A stretch of 64,000 nucleotides of DNA from Nereocystis luetkeana. Lineage: Eukaryota > Sar > Phaeophyceae > Laminariales > Laminariaceae. A program made the translations under genes and the position numbers. Shown in pieces: positions 1,891-63,336 of the stretch; position 1 is the first letter of the stretch, and each line of letters begins with the position of its first letter. The stretch covers positions 7,984,830-8,048,829 of the forward strand of contig JARUPZ010000002.1 in the NCBI GenBank assembly GCA_031213475.1, in the 5' to 3' direction. A model generated the notes under the pieces. It was not told where the DNA came from and searched no databases. It saw nothing but the letters and a program-made list of their open reading frames with translations.

Positions 1891-2014
1891 CAACAACAAC
1901 AACAACGACAAAAAAAAAGGTCAAGCTTGCGTTGTGAACTTGTGACGACCACGTATGCACCCAGCCATCGAAGCACCGCACGACGGAGGCTAACGGGTTA
2001 CCAGGTACCTGGTA

Positions 2015-4660
2015 TCTGGTAACCTGTACAAGGCGCTTCGCTTCGCGGGCGGCCTACGCCGCCTGCTACGCTCACTCAGAAAGGACAAAAACATCAATTT
2101 GTGCGAAGCGGACAGAGGCCCATGATTGAATATAGTTTTTTTCGAGATTTTGTATTTGCAAACTGGCGACTTGATAATGCCAAGAGTCGCGCCGCCATGC
2201 TTCAGGAAAAAACAGCTCGGACGCCACATACGCTTCGCGTCGCGGGCGGTTGGTTCCGCACGCTACGCTCGCGCACATCCCGTACGTACGTACATACCCC
2301 AGGTAGGGTAATCCTCTTCTCCTTTTGATATGCTTGCTGAATGTACGAAAGAGAAATCACAGCACGGCACAGCAGCACCGCAAAAACAATGGAAATGAAC
2401 CGAAAAAATTGGAAGGAAAAAATAATCCCCATCCCCCTTATGAAATAATTTTCTGCCTGATTGGAACACCTTGCACCGGTCAGGGCCGGTTCAAATGGGG
2501 GCAAAATAAACAACAAGAAACGAAATAAAAAACGAAGAACAGAACTAAAGAGTACGTGAGTTTTATTGGTCAAATTCAAAAAAATAGACGTAGAGATCCC
2601 GATACCTACGTTTTCACATTTCGTTTTTTTAAAGTCTCACCTGAGGGCCGGTCTTGACGAGGGCAAAACAAACGAAAAAAAAAACGAAATGAAATGAACT
2701 GATTTCCGTTTTTCGCAAAAAACTGCAGGTTGAGTCCTAACGAGAGAAAAAAAACGAAAAAAAAAACGAAACAAAAAGAAGAAGCAGAGTTGATTTTTTT
2801 CGCGGTACAAATTTTCGGAATGACTCAACCGCCACAGCACGTGATTCCCGGCGATAGCGCTCGACAGCGACGGTGGATAGACACAACTCGCACACGTGAA
2901 GCACCCTCCACAGCAGGCGGTTCTCCTGGTCCAACCCGCTCCCTACGGAGTGCTCTAGAACGTGTGTATCGGCCATCGCTGTTGGAGAGCAGACGTTTGA
3001 ATGTTGAGTGGGACGCATGTCGAAAAATATACCGCCAAGCCACTTCCTGATCCCCCGGTTTCTTGCGAGGGCACCCCATGATGATTCCCTACCCATATGT
3101 GCTCGCGCCGTCAGCAGACAAGCCGCGTGGCAGCCACATGCAATACCTCGGCCATCGTGCGCTTGCCAACCGGTCGTAAAAACTTTATCGGAACTGCATC
3201 CCAACGCTTCGAGCTCCACCTATGTTCCTCTTCGACCCTGGGTATCCCATATTTCGTTTATTTGGCACCCATTTCGGGTTTTTTCAAGTCCTCTGGGACT
3301 TAAAAAAACGAAATGTGAAAACGTAGGTATCGGGATCTCTACTTCTAATTTGTACAATTTGACCAATAAAACTCGCGGACTCTTTAGTTCTGTTCTTCGT
3401 TTTTCCATTTCGTTTTGTTTTTCGCTTATTTTGCCCTCGATAAGACCGGCCCTCAGAGGACTTGAAAAAAACGAAATGGGTGCCAAATAAACGAAATATG
3501 GGATACCTAGGGTCGAAGAGGAACATAGGAGGAGCTCGAAGCGTTGGGATGAAGTTCCGACAAAGTTTCTACGACCGGTTGCGAAGCGCACGATGGCCGA
3601 GGTAGTGCATGTGGCTGCCACGCGGCTTGTCTGCTCACGGCGGGAGCATGGGTAGGGAATCACCATGGGGTGCCCTCGCAAGAAACCGCAAGAGACCGGG
3701 GGACTAGGAAGTGGCTGTGGAGGTATATTTTTCGACATGAGCCCCACTCAATATTCAAACGTCTGCCATCGAACAGCGATGGCCGATACACATGTTCCAG
3801 AGCACTCCGGACGGAGCGGGTTGGACCACGAGAACCGCCTGCTGTGGAGGGTGCCTCACGTGTGCGAGTTGTGTCTATCCACCGTCGCTGTCGAGCGCTA
3901 TCGCCGTGAATCACGTGCTGTGGTGGTTGAGTCATTCTGAAAAATTGCACCGCGTAAAAAATCGACTCTGCTTCTTTTTGTTTCGATTTTTCTCTCGATA
4001 GGACTCAACCTGCTGTTTTTTGCGAAAAGCGAAAGTCTGTTCGTTTTATTTCCTTTTTTTCGTTTGTTTTGCCCTCGTTAAGACCGGCCCTGGAAAAAGA
4101 AAAAAAACGATCAGCATAGCTTTTCTCTCAGCCTCGTACGCCGCCCGCCCCTCTCGCGATCACCTCGCCACCGATTCGGTCCGGGTAAAGCTTTCCTCAC
4201 TCTCTGCCACAGTGAGCCCCATCGCCCGCCTCGCGTGAAGCCCGGTGCTCACCGTGGCCGTCGTTCGCCAGCTCGACAATGTTGGTGCTCAGAAGCGTAT
4301 CTCTCTCTTCGAGCTTCAGCCCGGTCGCAAAAATATGCACCGCTTGAATGTTATCTTGCAACCCCGAACGACCCTTATAAACTCGTACATACTCTATCCA
4401 AAATCACAAAAGGAGGCCAGACAGAACCCTTTCATGTTTCCCTCGTGTCTCGGGGCACACGCAACGCCTAGCCACGAAAACGGCAACCGCGCTCCTTGCA
4501 ACCCCCCCTCTACCCGCTAGCACTCGCTGGCACCCGCGACGGGGTCGGGCTGGCCCGTGGTGCCGTGCTCCGAGTACACGCACGCACACGAACCGAAAGA
4601 AGAAGAAAGGAGTAAAGGATTGAAAGTGCCAACAAAAACGGAGCAAACAAAGAACCGCTG
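2015..4660 (+). mobile_element. Composite repeat element interrupted by a fold-back insertion
   Basis: The left part (about 2025-2478) and right part (about 4095-4660) together match the element at about 37045-38050. Shared landmarks in order are a GGCGCTTCGCT tract, GCGAAGCGGACAG, GGCGACTTGATAATGCCAAG, TACATACCCCAGGTAGGGTA, AGCACAGCA, GGAACACCTTGCACC, then CTCAGCCTCGTACGCCGCCC, TTCGGTCCGGGTAAAGCTTT and GTGAAGCCCGGTGCTCAC. The 37 kb copy passes directly between the halves, so 2481-4092 is an insertion. A third, shorter copy of the left part lies at 22530-22745. No ORF with a recognisable transposition protein is present. Confidence 0.7.
2481..4092. mobile_element. Fold-back / inverted-repeat insertion (about 1.6 kb)
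   Basis: The block is bounded by CAGGGCCGGT at 2481-2490 and its exact complement ACCGGCCCTG at 4083-4092. Inside, B (2642-3295) is repeated in inverted orientation as B' (3454-4092), and a shorter A (2481-2641) is repeated inverted as A' (3296-3453), giving the order A, B, A', B'. The B/B' arms are about 640-650 bp with a 158 bp spacer. Ends starting CAGGG, followed by GAGGGCAAAA, resemble hAT-type non-autonomous elements, but no clear 8 bp target duplication was found. ORFs of up to 160 codons within the arms mirror each other and are not supported as genes. Confidence 0.75.
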
Positions 4661-5078
4661 GAAAGGTTCGGCAAGTAATAAAAGGAGGCGATTCCCAAGT
4701 GGCAGCTCTGAGAGGCCAGGGATGTACCAACCGAGCACGCTCAGAGAGTGAGATATCTATAAGTAGTTCTATGTACGCACTGCTGCAATCCCAAATGATA
4801 TTCACTGCTGTTCAACGTTCAAAAGCAAATTTGCAAATTCGCACACCATAAAACTGTGACACTTGCGCATGCTGTCCTGCTGTGATGTTGGTATTGTAAA
4901 CTTTCAAGTCACAAATAGCAAATCACCAAAATCTTCGAGGAGCAAAGTTGGCGATTGGTTCCTACTGCTGTACTTTTCACCAGGTATTTTCTTTGTCATG
5001 ACATGGCATGGTGCTGGGCGGATGCGTCTCTGCCGTGTCCTCACCTACTGATGCACGATCGAGACATTACAGGGTACA
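4661..5078. other. Intergenic, nothing recognised
   Basis: AT-moderate DNA with no long ORF, no clear repeat copy and no RNA gene that I can recognise. Confidence 0.5.
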
Positions 5079-5918
5079 TCAATAATCGCATGATGAGCAA
5101 GCGTGTACGCGTACAGGTATGCACGCACCTGGATAGCCTTGACCGCTACAGCAGCCTTTTTCCCCCTCCCTGGAGCGTCGGCAACGCAACACGACAGGAC
5201 CAGCCTCACGAAGTCCACCTGTAAGCAACAGGCAGGTCAAAGTCGGGACGGGCAGGCCGTGACGATGGTGATGGTGATGGCCATCGGCGGCGTAACCTAC
5301 GGCTGCGAGACACCACAGCCTACTGCCTACTCGCGAGAGATATGCCGTAAGGGGTACCACCCTGTCCGATAACACAATTGCCGTTCCTACTCCGAAGATG
5401 TGAATCCTCACATAGCGGTTCCGGCTCGCGAGCTCCTGGGAAGCCTTGCCCGATAAAATCTCCTCGACAGGCTTAACGGCCAAGTCGCGCATTAAGCCAG
5501 CGGTGCCCGCGTCGGCATTGAGCGCGATCGAGCCCGAATTCAGGTTGACGCTGCGAGCCCCTAGAATGCTGTTATTCTCTGAATTTTGGCTCACAAAGCT
5601 AGAAGCTTGAGACAATTTGCACGCGACAAATCGCTCCCAAACAGGATCAACGCTGGCCATTGCAGCCGTGGAATAAGATGGTAAAGGCAGTAAAGCCACC
5701 TCTGGCGCAGAACCCCTAAGTTTGTCGGGCGCTGCAGGGTGAAAGGGTCGACCATCTAAAATCACAAAATCACCAACTGGAAAAAGGTGGAGTGCAGAAA
5801 ATTGAAATTCAAATTTAGACTCATAAAAAAGCATCCGAATATCATCGAACTCCCCAAACTTGAATCCCGAGCATCCGACTACTGGGTTTACTTGGAGCAG
5901 CCGCGGGGTACAGCCCAT
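5079..5918 (-). CDS. Long ORF of unknown function (uncertain)
   Basis: A 279-codon reading frame on the minus strand starts at ATG 5918 and runs toward the window start. The middle (MASVDPVWERF, LNSGSIALNADAG, VKPVEEILSGKASQEL) has ordinary protein composition, while the C-terminal 100 residues include a His run and Cys-rich sequence that look non-coding, so an unseen splice site may lie before them. It is divergent from the C1-VPS9 gene, and its first 130 bases overlap the antisense of that gene's possible leader. I recognise no family. It could be a real first exon or a chance frame. Confidence 0.3.
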   Translation of the reverse strand: MGCTPRLLQVNPVVGCSGFKFGEFDDIRMLFYESKFEFQFSALHLFPVGDFVILDGRPFHPAAPDKLRGSAPEVALLPLPSYSTAAMASVDPVWERFVACKLSQASSFVSQNSENNSILGARSVNLNSGSIALNADAGTAGLMRDLAVKPVEEILSGKASQELASRNRYVRIHIFGVGTAIVLSDRVVPLTAYLSRVGSRLWCLAAVGYAADGHHHHHRHGLPVPTLTCLLLTGGLREAGPVVLRCRRSREGEKGCCSGQGYPGACIPVRVHACSSCDY

Positions 5919-6047: not shown

Positions 6048-9000
6048 ATGACACTATCCGTTCTTCCGAAATACGCTGCCGGTGCTGTTGCAACGTCGGG
6101 CCAGCAGCAGCGACGCGACGATGATGCAGCCGTCGATGAGGTGGGGCCCTTGACGTCCCTCACGGAGTCCGAACGCCTTGCATTGGCGGTCAGGTTCGGC
6201 CGCACCCGCATGTGCGCCGCACTGACCCACGGTCACAGCTTCGAGACCTCCATTTTCCGCTTGCCGGCGAAGTGCTCGGGTTGTCACGAGCTCGTGTGGG
6301 GGCCGTTCGCGCGAGGGGTTACCTGCCTCATCTGCAAGCTCACGGCGCACCGATCGTGCACGGGGATGGCGACGATACCTCAGTGCCCGACGAAAGAGGT
6401 GTTCGCGGATTTTTGTCGCTCAGAACTTGAGCGAGCAAATGGGGCACCCTGCTTCGACGGCGCCGGCATAGCAGCAAAAGTTGCGCCGGCAAGAGCAAGT
6501 GCCTCAACGTGCGCCGCTGGTGGTGACCTCGACGAATGGGCGACGGTGGAAGGGATGATGGACCAGTCTTGCGAGGGGACAGAGAACAAGCGACCGTCTT
6601 CCTCGCCGCCTCCGCCACACTCCCCACCGCTGGTGGCCTCTCAGGCTGTCCAAGACCTCGGGTCTTCCTTCTCCTGGAGCCCACTCGGAAGCGGCTACCG
6701 CAAGCTAGGGACCCAAGACAACGAGCAGCTGCCGCCACACCAGCAGCCGCAGCCGCAGCAAGAGCCGTCCACGTCTATCGCCGCTGCTGCTGCTGCTGCT
6801 GCTGCTGCAGTGACGCCGGAAGGCGACCTGGAAATAATCACCGAGGTGGCTCTATCGGAGAAAGACGATGGTGTAACCACTCCAGACCCTGCCACTATTA
6901 CTGTTGGGGCTGGTGGTGCCGCTGCTGGTGCTGCTGAACCGGCGAACTACAGTACCTCGAAGATCCGAAATGTTGGCAAGATGAGCGTCGCTGGTGGCGT
7001 CGTCGGCGCTGTTCTCGGCGGCCCGGTCGGCGCTGTGGTCGGCCTAAAAGTCGGAGCCTTCCTGGGGGCTGGAAGGTGGAGCGTGCAGGAGTTGTGGAAG
7101 CGAATTGAGAAGGACCGGCGGGAGGCCGGCGCCGAGGGGATAAGGCTTTCGAAAGGCTCGAAGGGGGCGGTGGCAGCGGCAGCGGCAGAGGAAGCGCTCG
7201 CTCGGAGACATCGAGATGTCTGGGCCCGCATCGCGGAGAAAATTGAGGGCGAGAAACAGCCGCTTGTCTGGTGAGTGTATCTTGCCCGTTGGAGCCACGA
7301 GAGCAGTGCGTGAGTACGTACGGTGGTTGTCGTACGGTAGTCAAGACGGTGAGCTGCTCATACCGGTAGGACCTACCAGGTATGTTCGATGCCCGATCTA
7401 TTTTGTCGTTGGATGTCCCAATGACCTTCTCTTGCGTCGAGCTTTCGTGAGCGCTTTTTGTGCGGCGTTACACCCTCGAATCCCTTAATGCAATGCGTAC
7501 GTACGTAAGTACGTACGTACCTGTGTAAATATCATCGCGTACATTGTTGAGCTGCATGCTGGTTCCGACTCGCCACAATTTGTAACCGCATATCGTGTGA
7601 CACGCAAGAGAGCACACCCCCTGGGCCAAATTTCCGAGACAAGTTTCTCCGAAAGTATTAGTAGGGGGGTATACGTACACAACGAGAGTGGTGGCGTTGG
7701 GGAGATGTCGTCGAGGCCTTTCCATAGACACATGGCTCGGCGTTTGCACCCGTCCTGTTGTCGAACAAATTAGCAGAAAATAATCCGAGAGGGTGTGTTA
7801 CCTTGTGCCTTATATGGTACGAGTATCAGAAATGAGGTCATCATTTTCCAGCTTCAACGTTAAACCTTACTTCTCCTTAGAGTTGCCGGGCGAGAAAACG
7901 CAATGAGGCCCACACTTGGAAACCGGGAAAAAAAAAAAACAGAACTTGTGCGGCGATATCTCTTCATCGTGGAGAATCCCGCGAACAGTGTCGTCGGTAC
8001 GTGTAGACTTGGGTATTTTTGTTCCCTGCTCACACTGGAAGAGTATAGTTTTTTCGCAAGCAGCACCAACGGCCGCCTCGCTTAACAGAGCACGGATCAC
8101 GCCAATACTACCAAGGATGTGTGATTGCTCTGAGATCCCTCGCTGCCGAGTTGTAGGGGCGTTCGTGGCGTGTGTTTGAGACGTCGTCCGACACGTGAGA
8201 GCCTGGCTCATTCTCGTGTCCTTTTTTTCACGCGGAAATTATGTGCTGTATGTGGTACGAGTGAAGGGCTGAAACAGAAGGGATTAGGCTCTCACGCCTT
8301 AAGCCAGACCTGCAGACACACACCACGAACCGCCCTCGAACTTTGCATTGAGGACTCTCTGCTCAGTGGAGCATGCACCCTCTGAAGTTTGTCGTCTTTG
8401 TCGTGGTCCCGTGATGTTCGAGGCGAGAGCTTGGCGGCGGTGGTTGTTGCTGTGTGGGAAAAGCTCATTTGTTTTGCTACGTCGGCAAGTTTAGGCAGGC
8501 AAAAAAATACCAACCCGACGACTGTGGGTTTCAACACCTCAAGAAGAACCCCCGTTTTTATACATTGGCCGCATGTCATTGTAACTGGCCTAGGGTACCT
8601 GGTACGCAAATTACAGTACCGCTCTGTAAAAGTGCCCCCATGCTCCTACCTCCCTCCGACTTCCTCGCCTGAACTGCTGCGGTGCTGTTCGTCGCTTCAA
8701 CGCCCCCCTCCCTTCCCTTTTTCTCTGCTTCCCCGCGAGTAGGGACCTCGGCGCCGAGCAACGAAGGCTCTTCGAGCAGGGGGAGTGCGATGCTGGGGAG
8801 GTGGCGATGTTTGTCGTTGGCAAGGTTCTGGCGGACGAATCGGCTATGCCGAGCCATCTCTACGCGGCCCTCCTCTGCGAGTTCCGCTCCAGACATCGCC
8901 TGTGCGACTGCCGCCGCCCTATCAAGCGGCGCTCCAGCGACAGCGATATGGTCGCGCTCTTTCCCCGAGCGGGCGGCAGCCGCCAAGCCGTGGACTCGAG

Positions 9001-10564: not shown

Positions 10565-13411
10565 CTGAGCGGTGAAGGGAGGGTCGTTGTGGATGCCGAT
10601 AGCAACGAGGGGAGACGGGAGCTTTGCCGGCGCGTGACTTGAAGGAAATGCGTTTTTACAGGGGGGAGGGGTAGATGGCTAGGTGCTCAGCGTGGTACTC
10701 GGGCACGCATGGCTGCGGCAGAGAGTGCCGGAAGGTGGGGGGGGGGGGGGGGGGCACAGTCATTGCAGCATTTTTTTTGTTTGCAGGCAATGCGTGAAGA
10801 GCTTGTTTATAGTGTCACGTACCAGGTATGTTTTATTTATTTTATGGGGAAGCGCCAAATGGGCGCGGCGTGAATATGGGCATTTGCGTGCCAACCACCG
10901 CAAATCGGATATAGAGCACGTACGCTTTGCTGGGCGCGTTATATTGCAGGAATGGCAAACGGCGGTTAGAGAGAGGAGGTTCCGTGCTGTTAGTACTACC
11001 AATACGTGCGAACTGTACACAATGTGATTATAATAGATTCGACCTTGTGGCGTCTCAGGTGTATGAGTCTCCCTGCTCCAATTCCTAACGGTCCGGCTTC
11101 GTGTGAAGTACCTGGGGGTGTATGTGTATGCAACCGGGGGCAGCCATTAGTTTCCGGAGCGCGTCCATTATTTTGCTCTGCGGAGCCTTTTATGTGGAGT
11201 CTGTGGTGTCGCTCTGCTCTGTTGTACGTGATCGATCGAAGGTTCGGCAGCATGGTTCGCTCAAAGCAAGCGCATAATAATGCCCTCCAGGCCAGCGAGA
11301 GGCTGACTCAATGGCCGCCACCGCTCAGGTGTTGCGTGGCCGGTTTGTGGCCGGTTCTTCAGATCGACTCGCAAGTCTCTGAATCGGAAAAGCCTCTATC
11401 GCCCCTCTGCCGGATGAATTATTAATAGCACTGTTTTCTTGTTAGATCTAGACCCCGGCGGCTCAACGAACGTGTCGTTCGGTTTCCCCTCAGCTCAATA
11501 TACAAACGAAATCAAGACATTAAAAAAAAACACTCCGCGAGGGTACGGATGCCCACATACAAAAAAAAAGCGCAGGCTATTCCATGCACTGGAAGCTTAT
11601 AGTAGAGCTACTCCTCTCACTCTCCTACACCAACCCCCCGTGTGCGACCCAGACCCGAACCGCCTCCTCCTGTGCGCTGGACCTCTTATCGCTGGGAAAT
11701 CGGATCGCTGGATCTCGTCACAGCGGTAAGTACATTTATTGAACCAACAGACACCAAAATAAGATAAAAATAATGGCGTGCAAAATAAAGCGCTTTCAAT
11801 AAGCAGCCCGGCCTGGCCCTACCAAAACCGAGACCAGGGGAAGAGAACACAAGAAACATTTGATAGATCCGAGGGGGACTGGAAAGTAAAGCGTCACACG
11901 AATGCGGTAACAGCCGTACCGCAACGTAACGCACCCAAAACTGCCCGTCTGTGCCGAGCAAAACTCGCTTACTCTCAAGTTGAAGCGTCTTGGGGGAAAA
12001 CATGCTGGCACCCAAGGTAGGACCGAGGTTACCGCCGTCGTGGGTAAAAACCTCTACGAGAGGACGGGGTGTGGAGCAAGGCGATTTATACTATCGCCAC
12101 CAAAAACGCCACCCCGTGACGTAGGAACAACGCGCGTCCAAAGCGTGGGCACACCTGGTACACCCTGCGCATTCACTCTGGGAGAAAAAAGGCGAAACAA
12201 GAAAAAACAGGGACAACCTGCAGCACGCCGTTACGGCTACAACCGACCACCACCCCACGCTTTCAACCTCTACAAAACCGCCGCAGATACTTCTATATTC
12301 TTACTCCTTCGCGTACGGGAGCCAGAAGAGGGCAAAACTCCATACGCAAAAGACTAATCAATGGAGATTTATTTTACTGCGCGATTCTCGTTCCACGAGC
12401 ACAACATTTGTCCGGCGGAAACCCCATACGACAACCACTATAGTGGAGAAGGGCCGGTGCTAGTTTACGCCGCGCGAACGCTCTATATATACGATGTACC
12501 GGATATACCATAAAAACCGGCACCTGATGCGTGCTCGAACAAGTTCGTACACCAAACAGATCAGATACATATACGACTAGACATTAAACTCCAACATTTC
12601 ACGATGAGCACACCCCCGACCGAAAGCCACACTCACGGCCCTTCAATCGATATACCCACAACAAGCAGTGGGGCTACTCACAGACGGCAAATAGTATACC
12701 TGGTAATCAGATACCAGTAGCAGCAACCGGTCGGGAGCAAACATCTGCCGTAGCGAATATGTTCTCGAGTGCAGTGAGTGGCCACAACAATTTCTGCGCG
12801 CTAAACCTCATGAATCTCCAGAAGCCCGACGCGCCCAGAAAAAGCCGACAGCCATAAATATCAATATCCACCCACACTCGACCAAAAATCCATCAACTGG
12901 GTTTATAGACACAAAATAGAACAACAAATCGAGCGACAACAGAACCTCGATTACAGAACGGATTAAAAAAAAAAAAACAGAACAAAACAAAACACAGGAC
13001 GCCAGCGTTGGAAACCTCGTGAACTACAGAACGAGTTCAAAAAAGAAAAAATAAAGCACAGGACGCCATCGCCGAACGGCAACCTCGTGGCAAGTACGCG
13101 AAGCGAAACGTCATCTGCTGACAGCAAGGCTCGAGCGCCGCCACCAGGATCGATCGGCATTTCCTACCTCCAGCATCGTCGACCATGCTAAAAAGGACAC
13201 GATGTGCTTCCATACTCTCAAGTCGAACGCCAACCCCCGCGCCCCCTGCGCCACCCTTGCTGCACCTGCGCCATTGCATCCTCGCTATGCCGCTCTCCAG
13301 CCACCTGACAGTGAGGCAGGCCACAGCGCCACCTAGAGCTTGGGTGGAATGGCTCCGGCAGCGCGGCCGGGGCAACCGGGGGGGGGGTCGGGCGAAATGC
13401 TTCTAAAAAAA
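10565..13411. other. Intergenic, 2.8 kb without a supported gene
   Basis: This begins after the VPS9 stop codon and contains a run of about 18 G at 10737-10754, several TACCWGGTA words and short ORFs only. On the minus strand, 13160-13375 carries exon-like sequence (VRLESMEAHRVLFSMVDDAG followed by a GTAGGA donor), which might be a further exon of the CH-domain gene if the TAG at 13412 is spliced over. I could not confirm this. Confidence 0.45.
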
Positions 13412-16400
13412 CTACCTGCACCCCCGAGTGACGCGAGACGACGAGCCCGTAGCGCTTGCGGCACCGGCGTACTCCGCGCCAAACGTCGGGCCGCTTTTAG
13501 AGACGTTAGTCCGCTCCATTGTCGCTTGGCTGCCCATGGTCCAGAGCGCGGAAGCCGACGCGTCCCCCGTCCCCGACGTGCTCGCTCCGAACGTTACCCC
13601 CTCCTTGATGATGACTCCACGCTCCATCGTTTTGCTCGAGCCCGCCATGAGCTGCGACATCGCGCCGGAGCTCTGCAACACCTTTCATTATCGAAATTTC
13701 GGGTTGGTTTTATTTGATTGAGAGCACGCCGAACGGATAAGCGGACGGAATAGGCGAAAAAAACTGAACCCATTCCCAAGTTTAGGGAGAAGTAAATAGC
13801 GACAATATATATGTATATTATATATGTCGTGCATCACATCGCCAAACGTTCATCACAGACACATCTCGTCGACATGTAAACAATAGGCTAAACAATAGGC
13901 AGATAGGCAAATACATAGGACTAAAACCGCTCGTGTGTCGGTGATCGGCACTCGCAAGTATATAATACCTGGTAACAAATAAGACTCTATACCGCTGCTG
14001 ATGTAAGTTCTCGTTGGCAAACGGATTTTCACGAGCGAAATACAAAATACACCGCCCCACTTCCCTCGTGCCGCTCGCTGGACATGCCATGCACATATTT
14101 CTCGTCGGCACTCTGTTAATAAGAAGAATGCTCCAGCAGAAAAATCTCCGGGGCTGCCCTGCTGCTTATAGTAATAAAGAGGAAACGCTACACCATTCTT
14201 CATCCATTTCCGTTGACGGACAGAACAGTGCGAGGAAAAAGAACCGCCTCAACCGTGCTGCTGGACGCAGGAGGCAGCAGTCAAGACGAATAGTGAGGAG
14301 GAGTGTAATTGGTGCAGACACCACGCGCAACTAAAAAGGTCAGGCTCTGTGCGGCTCGGATGATCGACCCGTTCCAACAACAAAAGTGCGCAGCAGCCCC
14401 CGGAAATGAAGGCCGCCGCCCAACGAATTGTCCGCGCGCATGGGCACGGACACACACGGAGAAACCAAGAGCAACGTTGGGTACGCCGCGTCAAGATGTG
14501 TGCAGGGTGCTCAACCATGTGAAGGCACGCACGCACAGCCACCATGAATACTGCAAGTGCAGCTAGCTGACTACAGTAGTTCTGTATGTATTTTACGGCA
14601 GGAAGAAAATGTGGAGGTCGCTCGCGTGAAAGGGGCAAAGGTCTTAGATTAGAGCTTGCATAGCACTCATGTATGAGTACGCATGCCCACCTGTTGTCGC
14701 TGCTGCTCGGTGGTCCATTCCCGCTTGTTGGAGTCCGTTTGTTTAATGCCGAGACGGGGTCCGTCGTACTCGGGGCAGCTCTTCTGCACCGTTTGGCCCA
14801 GAGCATGCTGTACGGTAAGCGTCGGTTCACGTTTCGGTGGCAATATTAGGAGAGCAGTCGTCATGTCATGTCATGGCTCTTACGAAGGGGCATGCGAGGA
14901 AGATTCAACCATGATTGTGTGAGTAACCAAAAGGCACAAATGCCTTCCCAGCGATCGTAGAAACACAACCAATCGTCGAACGTAGGAGGCAACGCAACAT
15001 ATATACTTCGTAGAAATGTAGCAAAAGGGAGAGAAGAGCAACAGAAAATCGAGGAAGAGGATACCTGGTACATGTTGGAACGAGCGCCAGAGCAAACGAA
15101 GCCACACCACTTCGATGCGGATATGAGTTTTGTCCGTAGTACGAACGAGCGGGGCAACATGTAAACAATACAATCACTTGAAATAAAACACAAGCGTACA
15201 AGGTGGCATACCCACACTACATACAGACGTCGAGCCGTGCGTATTGCAGACGGCTGGCTGGCTCACCAGACATCTGACGACGAGGCCAATGTCCTTCCCC
15301 TCAAACAGGTCCACCGTCTCGAACAGCGAGTACTCCGTCACGCCGACCGCCCTGCAGGCCTTTAAAAAGTTGCTGATGTTCTCCATCTGCTTGAACGGCA
15401 TACGAGAGTCGTTCACGCGCCGCACCGCGCCCGGCTTGATGCTGTTGATCAGCTCGCACAACCGGCGACCGCTCTTCAGCTCCTCCGCAAACTCGTCCAC
15501 GAACGGCTCCCCCGTCACATCCTCGATCCAATCCTGCGCCTCCCGCTCCGCCTGGTGGTCGTACGTTGCCTCGCGTCTCGCCGCAAGCTCGGCATCCAAT
15601 CCGTAGCCCCCGCCCCTCACGGTCGAGGACGGCCCTGGCCGGGAGGCGGCGCTCGAAGCCACGGATCGGGGGGAGAGTTGCGGGGATGTGGCCGCCTTCT
15701 CCGATCGCGGAGGTGAACGCGAAGGCGAGCGCGAAGGCGAGAGCGAGGCAGAGGGTGATTTCGCGGAAACGTTGACGGTAGACGCCACGGACGCCACAGA
15801 GCGACCCTGACCCTGGCCCTGCTGCGCCTGTTGCGAAGATTCGAACGCCGTAGGCTTGGGCAGGGTACTCGCCGGCGCCGGCCGAACCTGGGGAACGCTG
15901 CGGCTACCATCTCCCGAGCCGCGAGCGTTGGGCGAGACGCTCCCTGTGGCACAGCTGTCTTCGACGCGCACCGCCTGCGAGAATCGAGAGGATACGTCGT
16001 CCGGCTTGGCTGTCGCAGCGACCGAGGTAGTCTTCGCGGGCGGCGACCCGCTGTTGATCTCCCGGTAGGCAGGTGGAGGAAGCCGTTCACCTCCGCCAGA
16101 CGTCCCAGTCCCCACCACTGCTGGAGGCGGCAGCTGGGGCTTCTTGCGCTCGCCTGAGCCCCACCGAGCGGCCGACTCGTCGAACGGCGGCGGAGGCAGC
16201 TGCGCGACCGCGGCACCGTTAACGGACGGGATTGTGGCAATCGAGCCATCCCCCGCCGAGGCGTCGAAGCACGGCGACGACGGCGCCGACGAGTCATACA
16301 CCGGCGACGGCGACTGAGTGCGCACGGGAGACGCCTGCGGCGATAGCGGTACCTCCGTCGGTGTTGACACTGACGGCAACGGCGAGTTGGCCGGGGCCAC

Positions 16401-19400
16401 ACCGTACCGTGAGCTGGAAGACCTCAAACCTGCTTGCCCTGAAGTGGCCGTGAGCCCAGCCTTCGCGGCCGTTGCGAGCTTGAGAGGGCTCTTTTGCAGG
16501 GGTTTCAATCCCAGGTGCGGGCCTTTGAAGTCGGGGCAGTTGAGCTGCACAGTCCCGCCAAGCGCGTGCTGCGGCGGACACAGGGGCGGCGTGAAAGACG
16601 AGGGAAGTCATGCCGGCCAGGGCGGTAGTAAGAATGCGTCTGCAAGCAAGCTGTGCCGGGAAATCTATCGGATTCACGCTCAAAGCAAAAGCAGTACATA
16701 CGAATATACCTGGTACAATACTATTCTGTATTGTTGTCAAATGTCAAATGCAACACACAGAATGTGATAATGACGTATATACGCACAATATAATGTGTAC
16801 GTATATACAATTCGTACAAGCTCAAACTTTACAATTTACACGAGCAGTATAAATAAATAGTAAAAGTACATTATTATTAATGGAAATGATTCCGCATGAA
16901 GATGACCAAACGGCAGTGGCAGTAAAGCAACGGCATCATAAAATACCAGCGAAGAACTGCTGTTGCGTCGTCTTTGGGATGAATACTCGTACATAATAGC
17001 AGATGTTATCACATTGTCACATTGTTCCTGATTACTTTCTACCCTCTTGCCCCACTCGCTAAGCGAGCGTGAGTTCGTCGTTCTCGTCAGATTTGTCGGA
17101 TGCCGCGGTACCGCCCCTGCTTGTTGCAGGCGACCAGGCGAGCGTGACTTCTAGTCTCCAGCACACCACAGCCAGCACCCAGCACACCACAGCAGACAGC
17201 ACAGCTAACCAATCCGCCGGATACGCGGGATAACTTTTAGGATTGAGTAGCAGCAGTATTAATAGTATCAGTACGTAAGGAAGCAGTGATGCGTGATTCC
17301 CCGGGCGGGGGCGTTGTTTCCTCACATTGATCATGTTCGCCCTTATTTTTGCTTTCCCGCGTACATAGCCGTTACCGAGACCTCAGAGGTCACATACCGT
17401 TACTGAGACCTCATAGGTCACATAGCGGACTCTCCTCCCCCCTCCCTACTACGGTTCGTCCCTTGCAATATTATCGCGACAAGACTTCAGTGCAGCCCTT
17501 TCTTCCCTCATCAACTCGCGTCCAACCAGCTCACGTCCGGGAAACAGAGTCTGCCTTTCAATTCAGCCTTGGGCAAAAAAAAACTGTTTCCTCTCTATAT
17601 ATAGGCCGAGGACCGTAAGACATCGTTTCGAGGCGGGGACAAAACTTATCATCCCCGAGTGGCCGATGTACTATACGACGCATAAGTGTACGATTCGTTC
17701 AGACCTTCCGGCATTCCTTTTCTGCGTTTTTACTTTACGTCTGAAGGTAGGGCGCAGTTGCGCACGCACAATCTGATTGTCTCCATATGTGACGGCTTCA
17801 ATTGATGTTTCCAGCATGTATTTCCCCAGGCCCTCCTTGACTTGAAAGACATTGAAAAAAACACGAATCCCCCAAAGACCGATGACAATAGAGACGACGT
17901 GTCAAAGTTTAGTTCCCATACTACTGCTGCAATGCTTTCAAGAAACAGCTAAAGTTATTCTCGTACCGCTGCTGTGGAAACAATAAGAAAAAAAAATGTT
18001 TTTTGTAATTTTTTCTTCGTTCACACGGCTCCACGCGGCGCTTTTTTTTGGTCGTCGTAGATTGCCAATACGCTGATAAAAAGTCGGCTCATGCGACAAC
18101 AGACCTTCGATCTCAACACAGATCCAATACAACCCACGGCCAATCCGCTTGATGCCGGGCAAGGCCAACGAATGTAGATGGCAGCCTAGCAAATATCAGG
18201 TGGGTCCAAGGTCCACAGCTAGGCGAGAGCTTGCCGGCGGCGTCCTACGCTGTGCTTCCTCCCAAACCTGAAAAAAAGAACTATATTTTGCCATCCGAAG
18301 GGGATCGAGAAATGTTGTCGTCTGTTTTCTACATGCACACCAGCGGCCAACCGTTTTTTTAACAAACGCCTGCCCAGCGTCCGCCACAGAAAAACCGGTC
18401 ATTGTGTGAACACTGTTGTAACCCTAACCCTTTCAGGGCTGCAGTCTCGTTGTGGGGACAATTTGGGACAAACTACTTGGAATTTGACTGGTGTGTCCCC
18501 AAAACGGGGCTGGAGTTCTAAAAGGGCTAAGGTGGGTCGGAGCCCCTAACGGGCGCGCACCGTTCAGAGTTCATTCATGACGCAAACGTTTGTTCTGTCG
18601 ATCGGGGTCAGTCGGGGACTCGGAATCTCGCCATTTCGAATAAACATTCGCTGAGTTTATCCTAGCCGATCTTTGCTGAGGTTGACTTCGTCCCAGGAAT
18701 TATATTTTCCGGGGGTTTTCCGAAGTTTGGAACTTTCGTTTTGAAGAATCGTGCTCATAGCGAGCGGTACTGAAATGTTCCGGCGGGTATATTTGGAATT
18801 CAAACTTTTTATGGAACAGAGCGTTCCCACTGCCATAGGTCTAACTCGCACAGAATATTTCAGTACTTTACCAGGTGTCTGTATAACTATCTGTGTGTTT
18901 GGGGGTTCGAGAACACGGTACAGGCTACTTATCTATTTGCGCGGCTTAATGCTGTTATACCGTACTTTACATTTATGCATGGTTCGAAAAATGTTCGGGA
19001 GGTTCCATGCCATCCCATCTAGCGGGCGTTGGTTTAAGCCGGACACGCGCCGAATATCAATCCTCCCAAAAATATTTTTCCCTCCAGGTCTATGAATTTC
19101 CCTACCGCCACTGGAGGTGAATATTATTGATCTGAATACTATTAATAAATACCTGGTAAATACTACCACCAATCATATACTTAGCTGTTTTTTTGGCTTT
19201 ATAAATATACTTGTGGGTACGTTCGTATTATATTCGTACCATATTCGTTCTGGATTCTGGATACGTACTGGATACTGGTATAAATACACGTCATGGTACT
19301 CCGTACCTGGTACCACGGACTCCTTCGTCAGAGAGTTTTTGTTCATGAAAAAAATATGTCGTACAATACGTGTGATGACTCGATTGAAGGAGACCACAAA

Positions 19401-29178: not shown

Positions 29179-29212
<34 letters not shown>

Positions 29213-48400: not shown

Positions 48401-48921
48401 ACAATACCCATCAACAATATCAGGCATCAAAAAATATAAATACACCAGCCGAAATTCGAAGCCCAGCTCAACCGCCCGCTGGTGACAGAATACCCACCAT
48501 AAAGAATACCAGGCAACAAAGGTCGTTTGGTCTTGGTGCTTGTTTTTTTTATTCGGCGATGTTACGACTCGCGGCCTGCCGGTGTTCGATGCAAAAGCAA
48601 CCGCGTCTCTAACCGCTATATGCGAGACAACCATGGGTCAAGCTTTGTGTTGGTACTTGTTTTGTTTTGGCGACGATGCTGACTGCCAATTACCAGGTAT
48701 ACAGTAGTATGCTGTACAATGAAATTGTTCGCTATTGTGATTGGTCACCCTTCGTTTCCGTTCCGTTACCAACGCCGGATTTGCAGGAAGTAAAAGAGAT
48801 CGAGAAGGTCATGGATCGCGACTTTTACATGACTGCTCAGGAAGCCATGGACTTCGGTGTAGTGGATAAGATTATCACCAAACGTCCAAAAGAGGGCGAA
48901 GGCTCAGGAATCGTAGAGTAA
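42485..48921 (+). CDS. clpP: ATP-dependent Clp protease proteolytic subunit (ClpP)
   Basis: Predicted as five exons: 42485-42709, 43063-43181, 45201-45360, 45837-45959 and 48787-48921 (762 bases, 253 residues). Each join keeps phase and reproduces the ClpP order: [42 protein letters not shown] with the catalytic Ser147, HQPSGG with His172, and [12 protein letters not shown] with the acidic residue (Asp219 or Asp221). ClpP forms the 14-subunit proteolytic chamber used with ClpX/ClpC-type ATPases. The first 45 residues are Arg/Ser-rich with few acids and contain RRRRAYSS, a mitochondrial-presequence pattern; a second in-frame Met lies at 42500. Introns are 353, 2019, 476 and 2827 bp. The third has a GC donor (AAG before GCGAGC). 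No active-site residue is missing. The gene is nuclear, unlike plastid-encoded clpP copies. Confidence 0.93.
43182..45200. other. clpP intron 2, nothing recognised
   Basis: The 2019 bp intron has ORFs up to 182 codons on both strands, but none has a domain or forms a phase-compatible exon. The segment near 43495-43620 (GGGGCCTGTTTGGTGG, then two GATTTTATCA-like words in opposite orientation) may be a MITE remnant. Confidence 0.4.
46795..47015. repeat. Minisatellite of 33-42 bp units
   Basis: Units such as CGGGTGGGATCTGTATGATC followed by TGCACGTGTTG repeat about six times with length variants of 33-42 bp inside clpP intron 4. The frame stays open ([10 protein letters not shown]-like) only because 33 is divisible by three. 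Confidence 0.8.
47575..47830 (+). mobile_element. tRNA-derived SINE-like element
   Basis: The A-box-like TGGCTTGGTAGGTGG and B-box arm GTGGGTTCAAGTCTCAC are followed by a (A)10 bridge, ATTCGATGAAAATCGACG, GCGACAAAA, AAGGCACGTATCG and TGTGACC, the same order as the 33895 copy. It lies in clpP intron 4. Confidence 0.65.
48350..48520 (-). repeat. Tandem pair of tRNA-like (B-box) units
   Basis: Two copies of about 90 bp begin CACCAGCCGARATTCGAAGC and continue CAGCTCAACCGCCC. In reverse complement each gives GGCTTCGAAT, a polymerase III B-box-like word. A further A-box-like word (TAGCGGTTAGAGACGCGG) lies on the minus strand near 48610. They are probably SINE heads, not functional tRNAs. Confidence 0.5.
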
Positions 48922-50232: not shown

Positions 50233-53200
50233 TTACATCATCCCGTCGTCGAGCTCCTCGTCCTCGTCGAACTCTCCCTCCTCCTCCGCCGTGGCGTCCT
50301 GGTACTGCTGGTACTCGGACACGAGGTCGTTCATGTTGGACTCGGCCTCGGTGAACTCCATCTCGTCCATGCCCTCGCCTGTGTACCAGTGGAGGAAGGC
50401 CTTTCGCCGGAACATGGCGGTGAACTGCTCCGCCACGCGCTTCCACACTTCCTGGATGGCCGTGGTGTTGCCCACGAAGGTGGTGGACATCTTGAGCCCC
50501 TTGGGCGGGATGTCGCAGATGGATGCCTTGACGTTGTTGGGGATCCACTCCACGAAGTACGACGAGTTCTTGTTCACCACGTTCAGCATCTGGGACGAAA
50601 CGGGGATTTGGCAGGGTGGGAGTGGGGTGCAAAAACGCGAGTTCGTGGAAGCGATACGATGTCAGTCAGCTACAGCCAGAGTACACCTGGATGGTCTTTC
50701 CAAGACGTTTTGGCCACGTATCTATCGATGCCTGCGCCGTGGCGAGAGTCGTCATATGAGTACGGATATGTTTTCTACGCACACAGCGAACGCAGCACCA
50801 TTTGATACAATATTATATTGCGCCCACAGGCTCAAATTTGGTCACGAGAGACAGGGAGGGTCCTACACACTGACTTCAGTACCAGGTATAAAACATGTTC
50901 AGCTCTCATGTTTCGAGCAAAAAGTTCGAGCAAATATTACGGCGAAACATGCACGTCCAGGAGTATCGCGTTCAAACATGACTTTATACTCATGGCGCAG
51001 CGTACGTCTTCCACAAAGGTAAAATTCCATGCACCTCAATCCAACATACAAAAAGGTTCTACTGCTGTAAGTACGGTGTCTCACCTGCTCGTCAACCTCC
51101 TTCGTAGACATGCGCCCGCGGAACATCACGGCGCACGTCAGGTACCGCCCGTGGCGAGGGTCGGCCGCACACATCATGTTCTTAGAGTCAAAGCACTGCT
51201 GGGTCAGCTCCGGCACCGTGAGCGCACGGTACTGCTGCGAGCCGCGGCTGGTCAGGGGCGCAAAGCCGATCATGAAGAAGTGGAGGCGAGGGAACGGCAC
51301 CATGTTCACGGCAAGCTTGCGGAGGTCGCAGTTGAGCTGGCCGGGGAACCGCAGAGAGCAAGTCGTACCGCAGATGGCCGCCGACACGAGGTGGTTCAGG
51401 TCGCCGTAGGTGGGCGTGGTGAGCTTGAGGGTACGGAAACAGATGTCGTACAGCGCCTCGTTGTCGAGCGTGAAGCACTGGTCGGCGTTTTCCACAAGCT
51501 GGTGCACAGACAGAGTGGCGTTGTACGGCTCCACCACAGTGTCGGACACCTTCGGGGAAGGGATGACCGAGTACGTCGACATGACGCGGTCCGGGTACTC
51601 CTCGCGAATCTTGGAGATGAGCAGGGTGCCCATCCCCGCGCCCGTCCCGCCGCCCATGGAGTGGGTCATCTGGAAGCCCTGGAGCGCGTCGCACGACTCG
51701 GCCTCCTTACGCACGACATCGAGCACGGAGTCGATGAGTTCGGCGCCTTCTGTGTAGTGACCCTTGGCCCAGTTGTTTCCGGCGCCGGTCTGTCCGAAGA
51801 CGAAGTTGTCCGGGCGGAAGAGCTGGCCGAACGGCCCTGCTCGCACGGAGTCCATGGTTCCCGGCTCAAGGTCCATGAGGATGGCGCGCGGCACATAGCG
51901 GCCGCCGGTGGCCTCGTTGAAGTAGCAGTTGATGCGCTCCAGCTGTAGGTCTGAGTCGCCGTGGTATGCGCCCGTGGGGTCAATGCCGTGCTCATCGGAA
52001 ATCACCTCCCAGAACTTAGATCCGATCTGCGGCGCATTACGCGAAGAGCCCGTCGGGGGAGGAGGGTCGAGAGCGAGAAAAATGATCAGAATATCGAATG
52101 CGGTTTCATCATCGAGCGAACGGGGATGACGCAGCAGCGAGGTATCAAAAGCCTTACGCGGTCTATACATCAGCGAGCGGCAGAACAGTAAGCAGCACAC
52201 GGGTCGAGAAGGTAGTAAAGACTGGATCCGAGGCAGGCCAGGGCTCTGAAACCTGGAGGTCGTGGCCAGTGGCCATTGGCTGCAGTTGACAGCCGTTTGA
52301 ATTCGGGAATACGTGTGGTAGACTTGGTACAATCACGCAAGCCACCACCAGTAAAAAAATCGACAGCTCAGTACTGCTGCTGTAGGGGTCTTCCCGGAAA
52401 AAAGAGGCCGCCCACACTCCCTCCCGAGCGACAAGCAGCAATGTTTTCAGAGTCCCCGCAGCAGCAAGGGGGAGACGTTGACGCTTACAACGCACAGAAG
52501 CGGCGATCCATGCAAACCACAGCTCAGGAAAGATATGATACTCGTATGAGCACGAGTACGAGGTATTAGTAATATAGTAGTACTCGTTGGGAGAGTTGTG
52601 CTCGAAAAATTTTAAAAAATGACGAAAAACTGCTGTGTTGAAATAAAAAACATTCGAATTCCTCAAGAATCGCCGACACCGACACGTCGATACCATGTTT
52701 TAGACTGCTGTTTTGCACTGGACTTGCTGGGCAGCGCCTTGCGAGCGCTCAGCGTGCGGACAGCACAAAACCGCGGACGACGGAAGGAGGGTGGCTCTAG
52801 GGCGTGCAATATGAAGGCGGATCCAGAAGCTGCGACAAGATCCGCCAAGGGCGCGGATCGAAAACGACTCCGTTCGCCGACGCGTGGGGTCAAGGGCACC
52901 TCGATGCTGCCCATATGCTCGATTGGCCCGCCAAAAAAAACGCGACAAACCAAGACTAGCAGTGGACGCTCCAAACAGAGGGAAACTCTTTAGGGCCCGA
53001 ACAGCAAGCCAAAGCTTCGTACACTTCATGGAATGAGCGGGTGCAGGTTGCGTGGGGGGCTTCCCTCGGCCGCGGATCCAACCCGCGAGAACCGCAAACG
53101 ATACAGGCTTTGCACTTTTCAACGCGTGTACCTGGTAGGTCCTCTTTCCGCATACCTAGTACCTGGTATATTGCAACGGCCGGAATTCGTATTTCAATCG

Positions 53201-53488
53201 TGTTGCCATCGACGCGATGGGCTGCACAAAGTTTTCGAGGGCGTGCACACGGTATCCTCCACACGTTGCGAGCCGCATCTCTTTCGCGGACGGCCGCTGG
53301 CGCGGCTACCCTTGCAACAAAGGCGTTGCGTTTTGGAGGGAGGAACGGCTTTTCCTTATTGCTTGATTTGAGCTTTGCGTTTTTTCCGAAAAACAGCATT
53401 GCCGGTAGAGAGAACAACTGCAGCGGCGAGGATCGAATCGTACCTGGTTACCACACTGCCCCGCCTGAACGTGCACGATCTCCCTCAT
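50233..53488 (-). CDS. TUBB: Beta-tubulin (left copy)
   Basis: Three minus-strand exons, 53488-53444, 52026-51085 and 50589-50233, encode 447 residues, the usual beta-tubulin length. Introns are 1417 bp and 495 bp, both phase 0 with GT-AG ends. The protein starts [15 protein letters not shown] (the MREI tetrapeptide of tubulin autoregulation) and has the GTP-binding loop MGGGTGAG (139-146) and an acidic tail ending [11 protein letters not shown]. Tubulin beta pairs with alpha in microtubules. Residues equivalent to the fungal benzimidazole positions are Tyr167, Gln198 and Phe200. It differs from the right copy at residue 7 (Val versus Ile), 201 (Thr versus Met) and the last residues. The first splice donor lies in a TACCTGGTT context. 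Confidence 0.97.
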
Positions 53489-53821
53489 GGTGCTTAGCGT
53501 TGGTGAAGGAGAGGGCTGCAAGGTGTAAGGGACGAGGAGATGGGGGAAACCTTCTTGCTGTGCTGTGTGAGATGAGACCTGACGAGTGAGACTGGGAACG
53601 GCCTCATGGAAACCCTTTGGCATGTTTTGTAACCGTTTCCCGCAAGTATTACGGTTACAGGAGAGTACGAGTACGACTTTGATTTACGAGCCAGATGTAT
53701 AGCAGTCGACCTTCCCACAAGCCGAGTTGCCGCACACGCTGTCACTCCGCCACGCGACCACTCCAGCACGCGTACCGCAGACGTCCTCCTTCTCCATCTT
53801 TCGTTCACCGCACCGTACATC
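53489..53821. promoter_or_regulatory. Bidirectional upstream region of the tubulin pair
   Basis: Only 333 bp separate the two start codons, so both promoters and 5' untranslated regions lie here. Near the centre is a perfect 9 bp inverted repeat, TGTAACCGT (53628-53636) and ACGGTTACA (53651-53659). The CCGTT/AACGG core resembles the plant MSA element bound by three-repeat MYB factors at G2/M; that link is an inference. No TATA box is obvious. Confidence 0.6.
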
Positions 53822-56465
53822 ATGAGGGAGATTGTTCACATCCAGGCGGGGCAGTGCGGCAACCAGGTACGTCGTCGGCTGTCGCTGCCATGCGACTTTG
53901 TGACACGCGAACATGCGGTACATGTGCACCTCATGTGTGCACTTTTATACCATTCCCGTGGTTCCCGTAACACGCTGGGCTGCCTTGCAATGACTTGCAT
54001 GGCAACGTCGCAAAGGCACGACCAACCAGCTTGGGCTCGGGTGCCGCTACCCCGAAGAGCAGCGCTCTTGCCACCTCTTGGGGGGGGCTGCGAAAGACGA
54101 CTGCGAGGAGAGCAGGTTCCCCAAAGCCAAATCCCTCGTTTACAAGACAATGCGAATACAGCACATGAACCGGAACCATCGGCCTTCGTTGCAATCTCCG
54201 AATCTAAAACACCACGGGGTGCAAAGAGCTGTCGTCCCCCGCCACAGCTGTCATCTCGCAGGGCGCATCGAACAAAAGCAGAAAGTGAGTGCGGACGAGA
54301 GCACGCAACACTGCCGATGCAAGACAAGGGAGCTCACGCTGGGCTCACAACATGACAACATGAGCCTCCACGGTTACGTCGTCCTTCAACTACACAGCGA
54401 AAGAGCCAAACAAAGCTCTGTACACATGTCCCATCCCTGGTGACCCCGAGCATCTCGTGCGTGCGAGTATCACCGGAAGAGAACGGCACCCCTTTGACGA
54501 CCCGTCTGAGCCCGAACTCTTGACCGCTTGTCCTCTTCTGTGCGGCTTGAGAATGTTGTACTCTGAACACTGCTGACTGCTACTCGCACGACTTTCACTC
54601 CACTTTCCAGTATTTTGCGGTGTATATCTAACACAGCATTTCCTGACTGGTTTCATGTAACCGCGCCGCAGATCGGATCCAAGTTCTGGGAGGTGATCTC
54701 CGATGAGCACGGCATTGACCCCACGGGCGCATACCACGGCGACTCAGACCTACAGCTGGAGCGCATCAACTGCTACTTCAACGAGGCCACCGGCGGCCGC
54801 TATGTGCCGCGCGCCATCCTCATGGACCTCGAGCCGGGAACCATGGACTCCGTGCGAGCAGGGCCTTTCGGCCAGCTCTTCCGCCCGGACAACTTCGTCT
54901 TCGGACAGACCGGCGCCGGAAACAACTGGGCCAAGGGTCACTACACAGAAGGCGCCGAACTCATCGACTCCGTGCTCGATGTCGTGCGTAAGGAGGCCGA
55001 GTCGTGCGACGCGCTCCAGGGCTTCCAGATGACCCACTCCATGGGCGGCGGGACGGGCGCGGGGATGGGCACCCTGCTCATCTCCAAGATTCGCGAGGAG
55101 TACCCGGACCGCGTCATGTCGACGTACTCGGTCATCCCTTCCCCGAAGGTGTCCGACACTGTGGTGGAGCCGTACAACGCCACTCTGTCTGTGCACCAGC
55201 TTGTGGAAAACGCCGACCAGTGCTTCATGCTCGACAACGAGGCGCTGTACGACATCTGTTTCCGTACCCTCAAGCTCACCACGCCCACCTACGGCGACCT
55301 GAACCACCTCGTGTCGGCGGCCATCTGCGGTACGACTTGCTCTCTGCGGTTCCCCGGCCAGCTCAACTGCGACCTCCGCAAGCTCGCCGTGAACATGGTG
55401 CCGTTCCCTCGCCTCCACTTCTTCATGATCGGCTTCGCGCCCCTGACCAGCCGCGGCTCGCAGCAGTACCGTGCGCTCACGGTGCCGGAGCTGACCCAGC
55501 AGTGCTTTGACTCTAAGAACATGATGTGTGCGGCCGACCCTCGCCACGGGCGGTACCTGACGTGCGCCGTGATGTTCCGCGGGCGCATGTCTACGAAGGA
55601 GGTTGACGAGCAGGTGAGACACCGTATTTACAGCAGGAGAACCTTTTTGTATGTTGGGTTGAGGTGCATGGAATTTTACCTTTGTGGAAGACGTACGCTG
55701 CGCCATGAGTATAAAGTCATGTTTGAACGCGATACTGCTGGACGTGCATGTTTCACCGTAATATTTGCTCGAACTTTTTGCTCGAAACATGAGAGCTGAA
55801 CATGTTTTATACCTGGTACTGAAGTCAGTGTGTAGGACCCTCCCTGTCTCTCGTGACCAAATTTGAGCCTGTGGGCGCAATATAAGATTGTATCAAATGG
55901 TGCTGCGTTCGCTGTGTGCGTAGAAAACATATCCGTACTCATATGACGACTCTCGCCACGGCGCAGGCATCGATAGATACGTGGCCAAAACGTCTTGGAA
56001 AGACAATCCAGGTGTACTCTGGCTGTATCTGACTGACATCGTATCGCTTCCACGAACTCGCGTTTTTGCACCCCACTCCCACCCTGCCAAATCCCCGTTT
56101 CGTCCCAGATGCTGAACGTGGTGAACAAGAACTCGTCGTACTTCGTGGAGTGGATCCCCAACAACGTCAAGGCGTCCATCTGCGACATCCCGCCCAAGGG
56201 GCTCAAGATGTCCACCACCTTCGTGGGCAACACCACGGCCATCCAGGAAGTGTGGAAGCGCGTGGCGGAGCAGTTCACCGCCATGTTCCGGCGAAAGGCC
56301 TTCCTCCACTGGTACACAGGCGAGGGCATGGACGAGATGGAGTTCACCGAGGCCGAGTCCAACATGAACGACCTCGTGTCCGAGTACCAGCAGTACCAGG
56401 ACGCCACGGCGGAGGAGGAGGGAGAGTTCGACGAGGACGAGGAACTCGACGACGCCATGGGATAG
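53822..56465 (+). CDS. TUBB: Beta-tubulin (right copy)
   Basis: Three exons, 53822-53866, 54672-55613 and 56109-56465, encode 447 residues. Introns are 805 and 495 bp, phase 0, GT-AG. The N-terminus is [15 protein letters not shown], and the nucleotide-binding loop and acidic tail are as in the left copy, ending [11 protein letters not shown]. Exons 2 and 3 and intron 2 are almost identical to the left copy; exon 1 has six differences in 45 bases and intron 1 is unrelated in length and sequence. The genes are divergently transcribed from a common 333 bp region and probably co-expressed. Both copies look intact. Confidence 0.97.
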
Positions 56466-61620: not shown

Positions 61621-61639
61621 CGCGTGGCGGGCGGTCAAT

Positions 61640-62440: not shown

Positions 62441-62455
62441 ACAAGTTGATTTCTA

Positions 62456-62475
62456 GTGCTGCTGCTGCTGCTGCT
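62456..62475. repeat. (CTG)n microsatellite
   Basis: A short run of six CTG triplets in non-coding DNA. Confidence 0.8.
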
Positions 62476-63336
62476 GAGGTGTGCTCTTCTTCTGCTTTGT
62501 TTTGCTATACACATAGATAGACAGCAGCAGAGCAGCAACAGTGAAGCAGTGGTGCGATGCTTGCAGCAGCGGAGAGGCCAGCAGTCAGCAAGTATGAGTC
62601 TGCGAGGACCTGTTGTTGCTCGTTGCTGTTGTCGTGTTGGCCGCTACACACCAGGCACACAGCTGCTTGCTCGGCTTGCTGAAGTCTGCAGGCACATTTT
62701 TTTTTTCTTGGTGTAAAAACTCTCATACCACCAGGTATAAAAATCATGTCATGTGTCATGTGCACTGTTAATACGTCATCCGCACAATCGTACGACGAAA
62801 AACTGGCTGCTGTTTACCCTACTACAGGTGTTGCTGCGGAACACTATGAATACGGGGCACTTTCTACCTACAGTATGGACAAGCCTGAGATTCTTATTGG
62901 GGCGCCATCTTGAAACAGCCTTGAGCATAGGCTTTTATATAGGATTTAGTGTAGAGTGCACCACTGAGCCGTTTTCTTAACCCAATTTTCTTAGCGTTCT
63001 CCAGAAAGTGAGCATTATGTTCTTATCCGGGACTTTCTTATTGGCGGGGCTATACTGCTGTACCAGGTATAGCAGTACCCGTGCTACCGGTACCGTCCTT
63101 TTTTATACCTGGTGTTAACTACAACTAAATAATGACACATTTCCGCAACAAACTTTATTAACAGCAGCAGTACAGCAGTTATGCCCTCATAAATGGGTGT
63201 GTGTGTTCTTCATATTAATAATGATGGGTGGGATGCAGTTCTAAACAGGTGTGCAGGTATATCATACTGGTATTATATTTTTTCGCTCTTGCGCCACTCC
63301 CCTAGGCACTTCCCGGAGGGGAACCTTGATAACATA
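62476..63336. other. Intergenic, nothing recognised
   Basis: Short ORFs only, with one exact TACCAGGTA at 63061 and near-matches at 62730 and 63104. Confidence 0.4.

Follow-up and report, generated by a model that had tools for sequence, protein, structure and literature searches.

What placed 37 copies of one nearly palindromic nonamer, TACCWGGTA (W is A or T), in 64,000 nucleotides of the genome of Nereocystis luetkeana? The stretch in question (contig JARUPZ010000002.1 of assembly GCA_031213475.1, positions 7,984,830 to 8,048,829 of the forward strand; referred to at its full length as the window) had been the subject of a sequence-only reading, which counted 37 exact words, five of them at 39043-39114, and offered the footprint of a mobile element, a recombination or protein-binding site, or the residual ends of a repeat family as possible origins. 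The count was borne out at the same places, against a mean of 0.28 and a maximum of 3 in dinucleotide shuffles and an order-3 Markov expectation of 0.67. The excess was also evident throughout the host genome, an assembly of 465 Mb whose 1,987 contigs range up to more than 20 Mb and in which the word occurs 182,395 times (i.e., about once per 2.5 kb) as compared with 1,744 times for a control word of the same letters reversed, a difference of approximately 105-fold. As set out below, the word represents 7 bp inserted at TA and is very probably the footprint of excision by a cut-and-paste transposon that targets TA.

The dispersal and uniformity of the word were evident from a 264-kb sample composed of the window and 20 chosen 10-kb loci, which contained 99 exact copies. 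The central base was A or T at these 99 sites and C or G at 6, and each of the other single-base neighbours occurred at most 12 times. The 99 aligned flanks displayed a weak purine/pyrimidine preference beside the word and a TA approximately 7 bp out but otherwise no strong common signal, and the copies sit in many unrelated sequences, which argues against residual ends of a repeat family. An ordinary long repeat was ruled out by the same weakly shared flanks and a microsatellite by the dispersal of the copies.

The nature of the word was determined from comparisons of duplicated sequences, a site being scored as empty when a paralogue read left flank-TA-right flank where the copy read left flank-TACCWGGTA-right flank. 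Of 122 exact copies at the loci compared, 19 had a spanning paralogue, which was empty in 5 cases, filled in 6 and unclear in 8; the flanks of the five empty sites matched at 26 of 26 positions in the best case and at 21 in the weakest. The duplicated sequences differed by 7 bp, reading X-TA-Y in one and X-TA-CCWGG-TA-Y in the other. Similarly, in an alignment of a high-copy miniature inverted-repeat transposable element (MITE), an extra CCTGGTA was present in one copy and absent from 12 (10 with TA and 2 with CA at that place), and a double insertion of 14 bp was noted at one locus. Indels between repeat copies that had not been selected for the word included 16 of 7 bp, two of which were the exact word while several resembled decayed versions of it (e.g., TACAAGGTA and TACCTCGTA). 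These findings indicate that TACCWGGTA is a 7-bp insertion at TA, as foreseen by the suggestion of a mobile element footprint, and the empty and filled sites display the TA target site duplication of Tc1/mariner (IS630) elements.

Variants of the scar were informative as to how it may have been made. A 6-nt scar, longer by one base, occurs 13,000 times genome-wide as opposed to 771 for its control and, among the first 100 places listed, was oriented as TACCAGGGTA in 93 and as TACCTGGGTA in 7 (85 to 7 without the 8 TACCAGGGTA of one tandem array). Given this strand bias, the missing element probably ended 5'-CCAGGG. Also in excess was TACCGGTA, i.e., the scar minus the base predicted to be mismatched (28 as compared with 6.7, both strands together). 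In the mechanism that we propose, the source transposon would have had the ends 5'-TA/CCAGG(G) and would have duplicated TA on insertion, and the cuts made at excision would have left each end with an overhang of 4-5 nt (CCAG(G)), the two overhangs being able to pair CC:GG around an A:A mismatch. Repair of this mismatch to A or T would yield TA-CCWGG-TA and so add 7 bp net, and loss of the mismatched base would yield TACCGGTA. We infer the existence of the transposase as well as the length of the overhangs, the sequence of the ends and the repair of the mismatch.

A palindromic protein-binding or recombination site maintained by selection would be in keeping with a word that is palindromic apart from its central W, with the weak symmetric preference in its flanks and with its absence from the six domain-bearing open reading frames (ORFs) of the window. 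This explanation is nevertheless extremely unlikely, since the word is itself an inserted 7-bp unit that paralogues lack while retaining TA, since there are 182,395 copies, some of them within MITEs, and since the strand bias of the 6-nt variant is not predicted by a symmetric site. The six ORFs (C1, VPS9, two CH and two tubulin; 13% of the window) contained none of the 37 words, an absence with p = 0.006 by length and p = 0.11 when the distribution of TA is allowed for. The earlier statement that no copy lies in an exon is thus upheld for these ORFs and consistent with the data but, given the positions of TA, not proven. Absence of excision scars from coding sequence is in any case expected because a 7-bp insertion shifts the reading frame. 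The similar string that the sequence-only reading noted at the edge of tubulin exon 1 (53441 and 53869), when its letters were inspected by eye, read as codons for Gln-Cys-Gly-Asn-Gln and then GTA; it has no outer TA and bears no relation to TACCWGGTA.

Pairing of overhangs also gives rise to the footprint of Sleeping Beauty. The scar of this element, TACWGTA (i.e., TACAGTA or TACTGTA), is the known analogue of TACCWGGTA and, according to PMC4378557, is likewise near-palindromic and flanked by TA, with a central A or T, staggered cuts and TA duplication. The difference is that the Sleeping Beauty scar is 3 nt long and comes from a known element whereas the present scar is 5 nt long, comes from a missing element and exists in approximately 182,000 natural copies. 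No report of a comparable scar load was found in the literature covered, subscription papers being outside this coverage. A mode of action like that of Tc1/mariner elements is proposed but, as neither an element nor a transposase could be tied to the scar, we do not assign its source to that superfamily; the high probability assigned above applies to the footprint reading only.

An internal comparison was provided by a second word, TATTAATA, which was also in excess in the 264-kb sample (64 sites; both-strand count of 128 as compared with 9.5 expected) and which acts as a 6-bp scar, since 13 of 73 copies had a spanning paralogue and these were empty in 6 cases, filled in 5 and unclear in 2. 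Its source is likely the TTACGG family, represented by L037 (C2:6044001-6049000), an IS630/Tc1-like element of approximately 4.27 kb with inverted TA/TTACGG ends and a DDE_3 match (E = 2e-12); pairing of 3-nt TTA overhangs through TA would predict TATTAATA. The family is recent, 10 of its ORFs being 98-100% identical, and its ends also occur on high-copy MITEs of approximately 108 bp (23 TATTACGGnGG ends in 322 kb). The D2-E spacing of the L037 transposase is 123 residues. Thus, both scars involve TA duplication and can be read from overhang pairing (a net 6 bp for TATTAATA), whereas source copies and MITEs are resident and recent only for the TTACGG family, the overhang of which is TTA as opposed to CCAGG. 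In one of eight closely related hAT copies (L058), a TATTAATA insertion was present that was absent at the same place from the others, which suggests that the TTACGG family was active fairly recently.

Resident hAT families with CAGGG in their terminal inverted repeats (TIRs; L052-L067) have ends that read TACCAGGG when the target site duplication ends in TAC, so that the word might be parsed as a hAT footprint, TAC-CWG-GTA, composed of the end of a duplication, 3 nt and the start of a duplication. This origin is very unlikely. These families make 8-bp duplications and follow no TA rule: of the 8 copies fetched from family 1 (TIR CAGGGATGCGTATTTCC), 7 had exact 8-bp duplications, as did 2 of 8 from family 2 (TIR CAGGGCTNTTC), a third copy of which agreed at 7 of 8 positions. 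Together with a 3-nt scar, a duplication of this length would mean a gain of 11 bp rather than the 7 bp observed with TA, and the hAT families were rejected as the source on these grounds. Moreover, the outer bases of the scar are those of the empty site, and no 8-bp duplication was seen around CWG in five clear cases. Copies of family 1 (L052-L059) are 928-989 bp long and of two internal variants, and L053 contains no ORF longer than 129 aa. One copy of this family is inserted inside a pre-existing TACCTGGTAC.

The element that the excision footprint reading calls for was sought in several ways. When 322 kb were scanned for inverted repeats of 50-900 bp flanked by TA, the TTACGG family was recovered and the sole CCWGG match was the tubulin inverted duplicate; TACCWGG TIR pairs in the sequence examined consisted of this duplicate, paired footprints and chance matches. 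Genome matches to TACCAGGG ends, in lists of 100 of 873, 100 of 287 and 100 of 249 places, led to the two hAT families; apart from the end described next, other repeated extensions (lists of 873 and 249 places) resembled duplicated loci. The repeated end TACCAGGGGTCGTCG was noted at two listed places, and the one that was read (L069) had no TA-flanked partner in 560 bp. L069 (C2:6483039-6483639) and C4:2773008-2773041 have the end CAGGGGTCGTCGYGGGARAAGCAA in common after TAC, and an inverted GGAGAAGCAA with no matching duplication seen lies 0.5 kb away in L069; this end perhaps represents a third hAT family.

Among transposases, a DDE_3 profile search returned nothing at E ≤ 1e-3, a threshold at which the search was lossy (L037 was itself missed) and, at E ≤ 10, yielded no matches beyond the L037/C17 type and its degraded relatives. 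A search with the mariner Transposase_1 profile returned nothing above the cut-off, and 8 examined DDE_1 matches of 46 (L029-L036) had no TACCWGG TIR pair within approximately 1.5 kb. The C17 protein (C17:1213220-1214974; L040:1420-3177) is an intact, single-copy, IS630-like DDE protein of 585 aa, 39% identical to the L037 transposase. It is a doubtful candidate for the source, as no matching TIR pair was detected in the 7.5 kb read and a lone downstream TACCAGGG (L040:4402) had no partner; the protein may be domesticated. A relative on C10 had no end in common with it in the 2.2 kb read. The failure to find the source may reflect few copies, decayed ends or extinction.

Insertion favours TAs that have another TA 7 bp off. 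Of 198 flanks, 75 (38%) had a TA at precisely 7 bp from the word as compared with approximately 7.4% for any TA, and adjacent scars with a common TA (TACCWGGTACCWGGTA) numbered 15,917 genome-wide as opposed to 2 for the control. The centres of 59 plus-strand tandem pairs among the rows listed were AA in 23, TT in 17, AT in 14 and TA in 5, i.e., alike in 40 and mixed in 19, and two places were overlapping triples. The mixed pairs suggest independent insertions while the excess of like pairs indicates that some tandem pairs are probably duplications. Tandem TACCWGG words in viral contigs (two or three copies at each of 9 loci) were taken as chance.

Several results weigh against the excision footprint reading. 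The 322 kb and the listed genome matches, a small part of the genome, yielded no resident element whose CCWGG ends were flanked by TA, nor any with CCAGG TIRs next to TA as found in Tc1/mariner elements; the repeated TACCAGGG ends that were followed among the matches listed were, except for L069, those of hAT families. The scar, at 5 nt, exceeds the 2-4 bp given for Tc1/mariner footprints in PMC7913693. Indels between repeat copies had no peak at 7 bp (27 of 6 bp, 16 of 7, 15 of 8 and 18 of 9), so that most small indels in old repeats are not scars. Among control TA-N5-TA words, 17 of the 151 that were classifiable were called empty (15 empty and 2 both), most of these being simple repeats or decayed scars. 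Flanking TA was also mildly raised at offsets of 2, 4 and 14 bp, and mixed centres in 19 of the 59 listed tandem rows fall short of the half expected if insertions were independent.

The age of the insertions bears on a further explanation. In addition to 99 intact copies, single-substitution derivatives numbered 129 over a background of approximately 53, an excess that suggests a mean divergence of approximately 8% per site, and no exact word was present inside the 8 fetched copies of hAT family 1, the alignable interiors of which are nearly identical (two words were present in their flanks). Given both results, most of the events look old. TACCWGG units might instead be inserted independently of a transposase or in a programmed manner, e.g., through excision during development, the elements being missing from the tissue that was sequenced, and the great uniformity of the scar would agree with this, as would the failure to find a source even though scars in the sample outnumber those of the TTACGG family (99 as compared with 64), which has resident copies. 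We consider this explanation unlikely since an ordinary element that is old, low in copy number or extinct fits the same data and since the divergence suggests mostly old events. The best reading is that the footprints are mostly old, with few or no source copies surviving.

Table 1. Footprints and scar variants in the window.
Feature	Position	Strand
Tandem footprint TACCAGGTACCTGGTA, two copies with common TA	1999..2014	
Footprint TACCAGGTA	7374..7382	
Footprint TACCTGGTA	8596..8604	
Footprint TACCAGGTA	10820..10828	
Footprint TACCTGGTA	12697..12705	
Footprint TACCTGGTA	13966..13974	
Footprint TACCTGGTA	15062..15070	
Footprint TACCTGGTA	16707..16715	
Footprint TACCTGGTA	19150..19158	
Footprint TACCTGGTA	19304..19312	
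Footprint TACCTGGTA	19743..19751	
Footprint TACCAGGTA	22761..22769	
Footprint TACCTGGTA	28470..28478	
Footprint TACCTGGTA	28642..28650	
Footprint TACCTGGTA	28827..28835	
Footprint TACCTGGTA	30687..30695	
Footprint TACCAGGTA	30861..30869	
Footprint TACCTGGTA	31163..31171	
7-nt variant TACCAGGGGTA	33752..33762	+
Footprint TACCAGGTA	34305..34313	
Footprint TACCTGGTA	34317..34325	
Footprint TACCAGGTA	35160..35168	
Footprint TACCTGGTA	37280..37288	
Footprint TACCAGGTA	38419..38427	
6-nt variant TACCAGGGTA, immediately 5' of exact copy	39035..39044	+
Footprint TACCAGGTA	39043..39051	
Four-footprint cluster (39074, 39093, 39107, 39114)	39074..39122	
Footprint TACCTGGTA	42020..42028	
Footprint TACCTGGTA	48089..48097	
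Footprint TACCAGGTA	48691..48699	
Footprint TACCAGGTA adjoining left tubulin ORF; counterpart 55810 in inverted duplicate	50880..50888	
Footprint TACCTGGTA	53129..53137	
Footprint TACCTGGTA	53160..53168	
Footprint TACCTGGTA, same site as 50880, inverted tubulin duplicate	55810..55818	
Footprint TACCAGGTA	63061..63069	
6-nt variant TACCAGGGTA	63443..63452	-

The window also contains two inverted tubulin ORFs (49991-56498), 99% identical around a footprint that, being carried by both copies, predates their duplication. Other repeats noted were a degenerate tandem array at 24641-25252 rich in TACTCSGAGTA, another near-palindromic word, of which most of the 13 printed sample copies resemble this array and a few lie elsewhere, and a 96-bp repeat in five tandem copies at 1219-1699 with 99% matches and an open frame.

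A fuller account of the excision footprints, which we advance as a tentative suggestion, is that a low-copy transposon with unusually long, self-complementary overhangs of 4-5 nt may have been active in this lineage for a long time, leaving more than 180,000 intact and uniform 7-bp insertions while itself becoming rare or extinct, with its scars, which present a TA every 7 bp, serving as preferred targets. The inserted bases amount to approximately 1.3 Mb (182,395 x 7, less chance copies). Counting is usually precluded by the shortness and variability of excision footprints, but TACCWGGTA is long and uniform enough to be counted genome-wide, so that the rate of excision, the choice of targets and the decay of scars would become measurable without the element. 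An abundant non-coding palindrome, moreover, need not be regulatory. If this fuller account is true, the genome of this kelp would hold a countable and datable record of excision by an element now lost from view.

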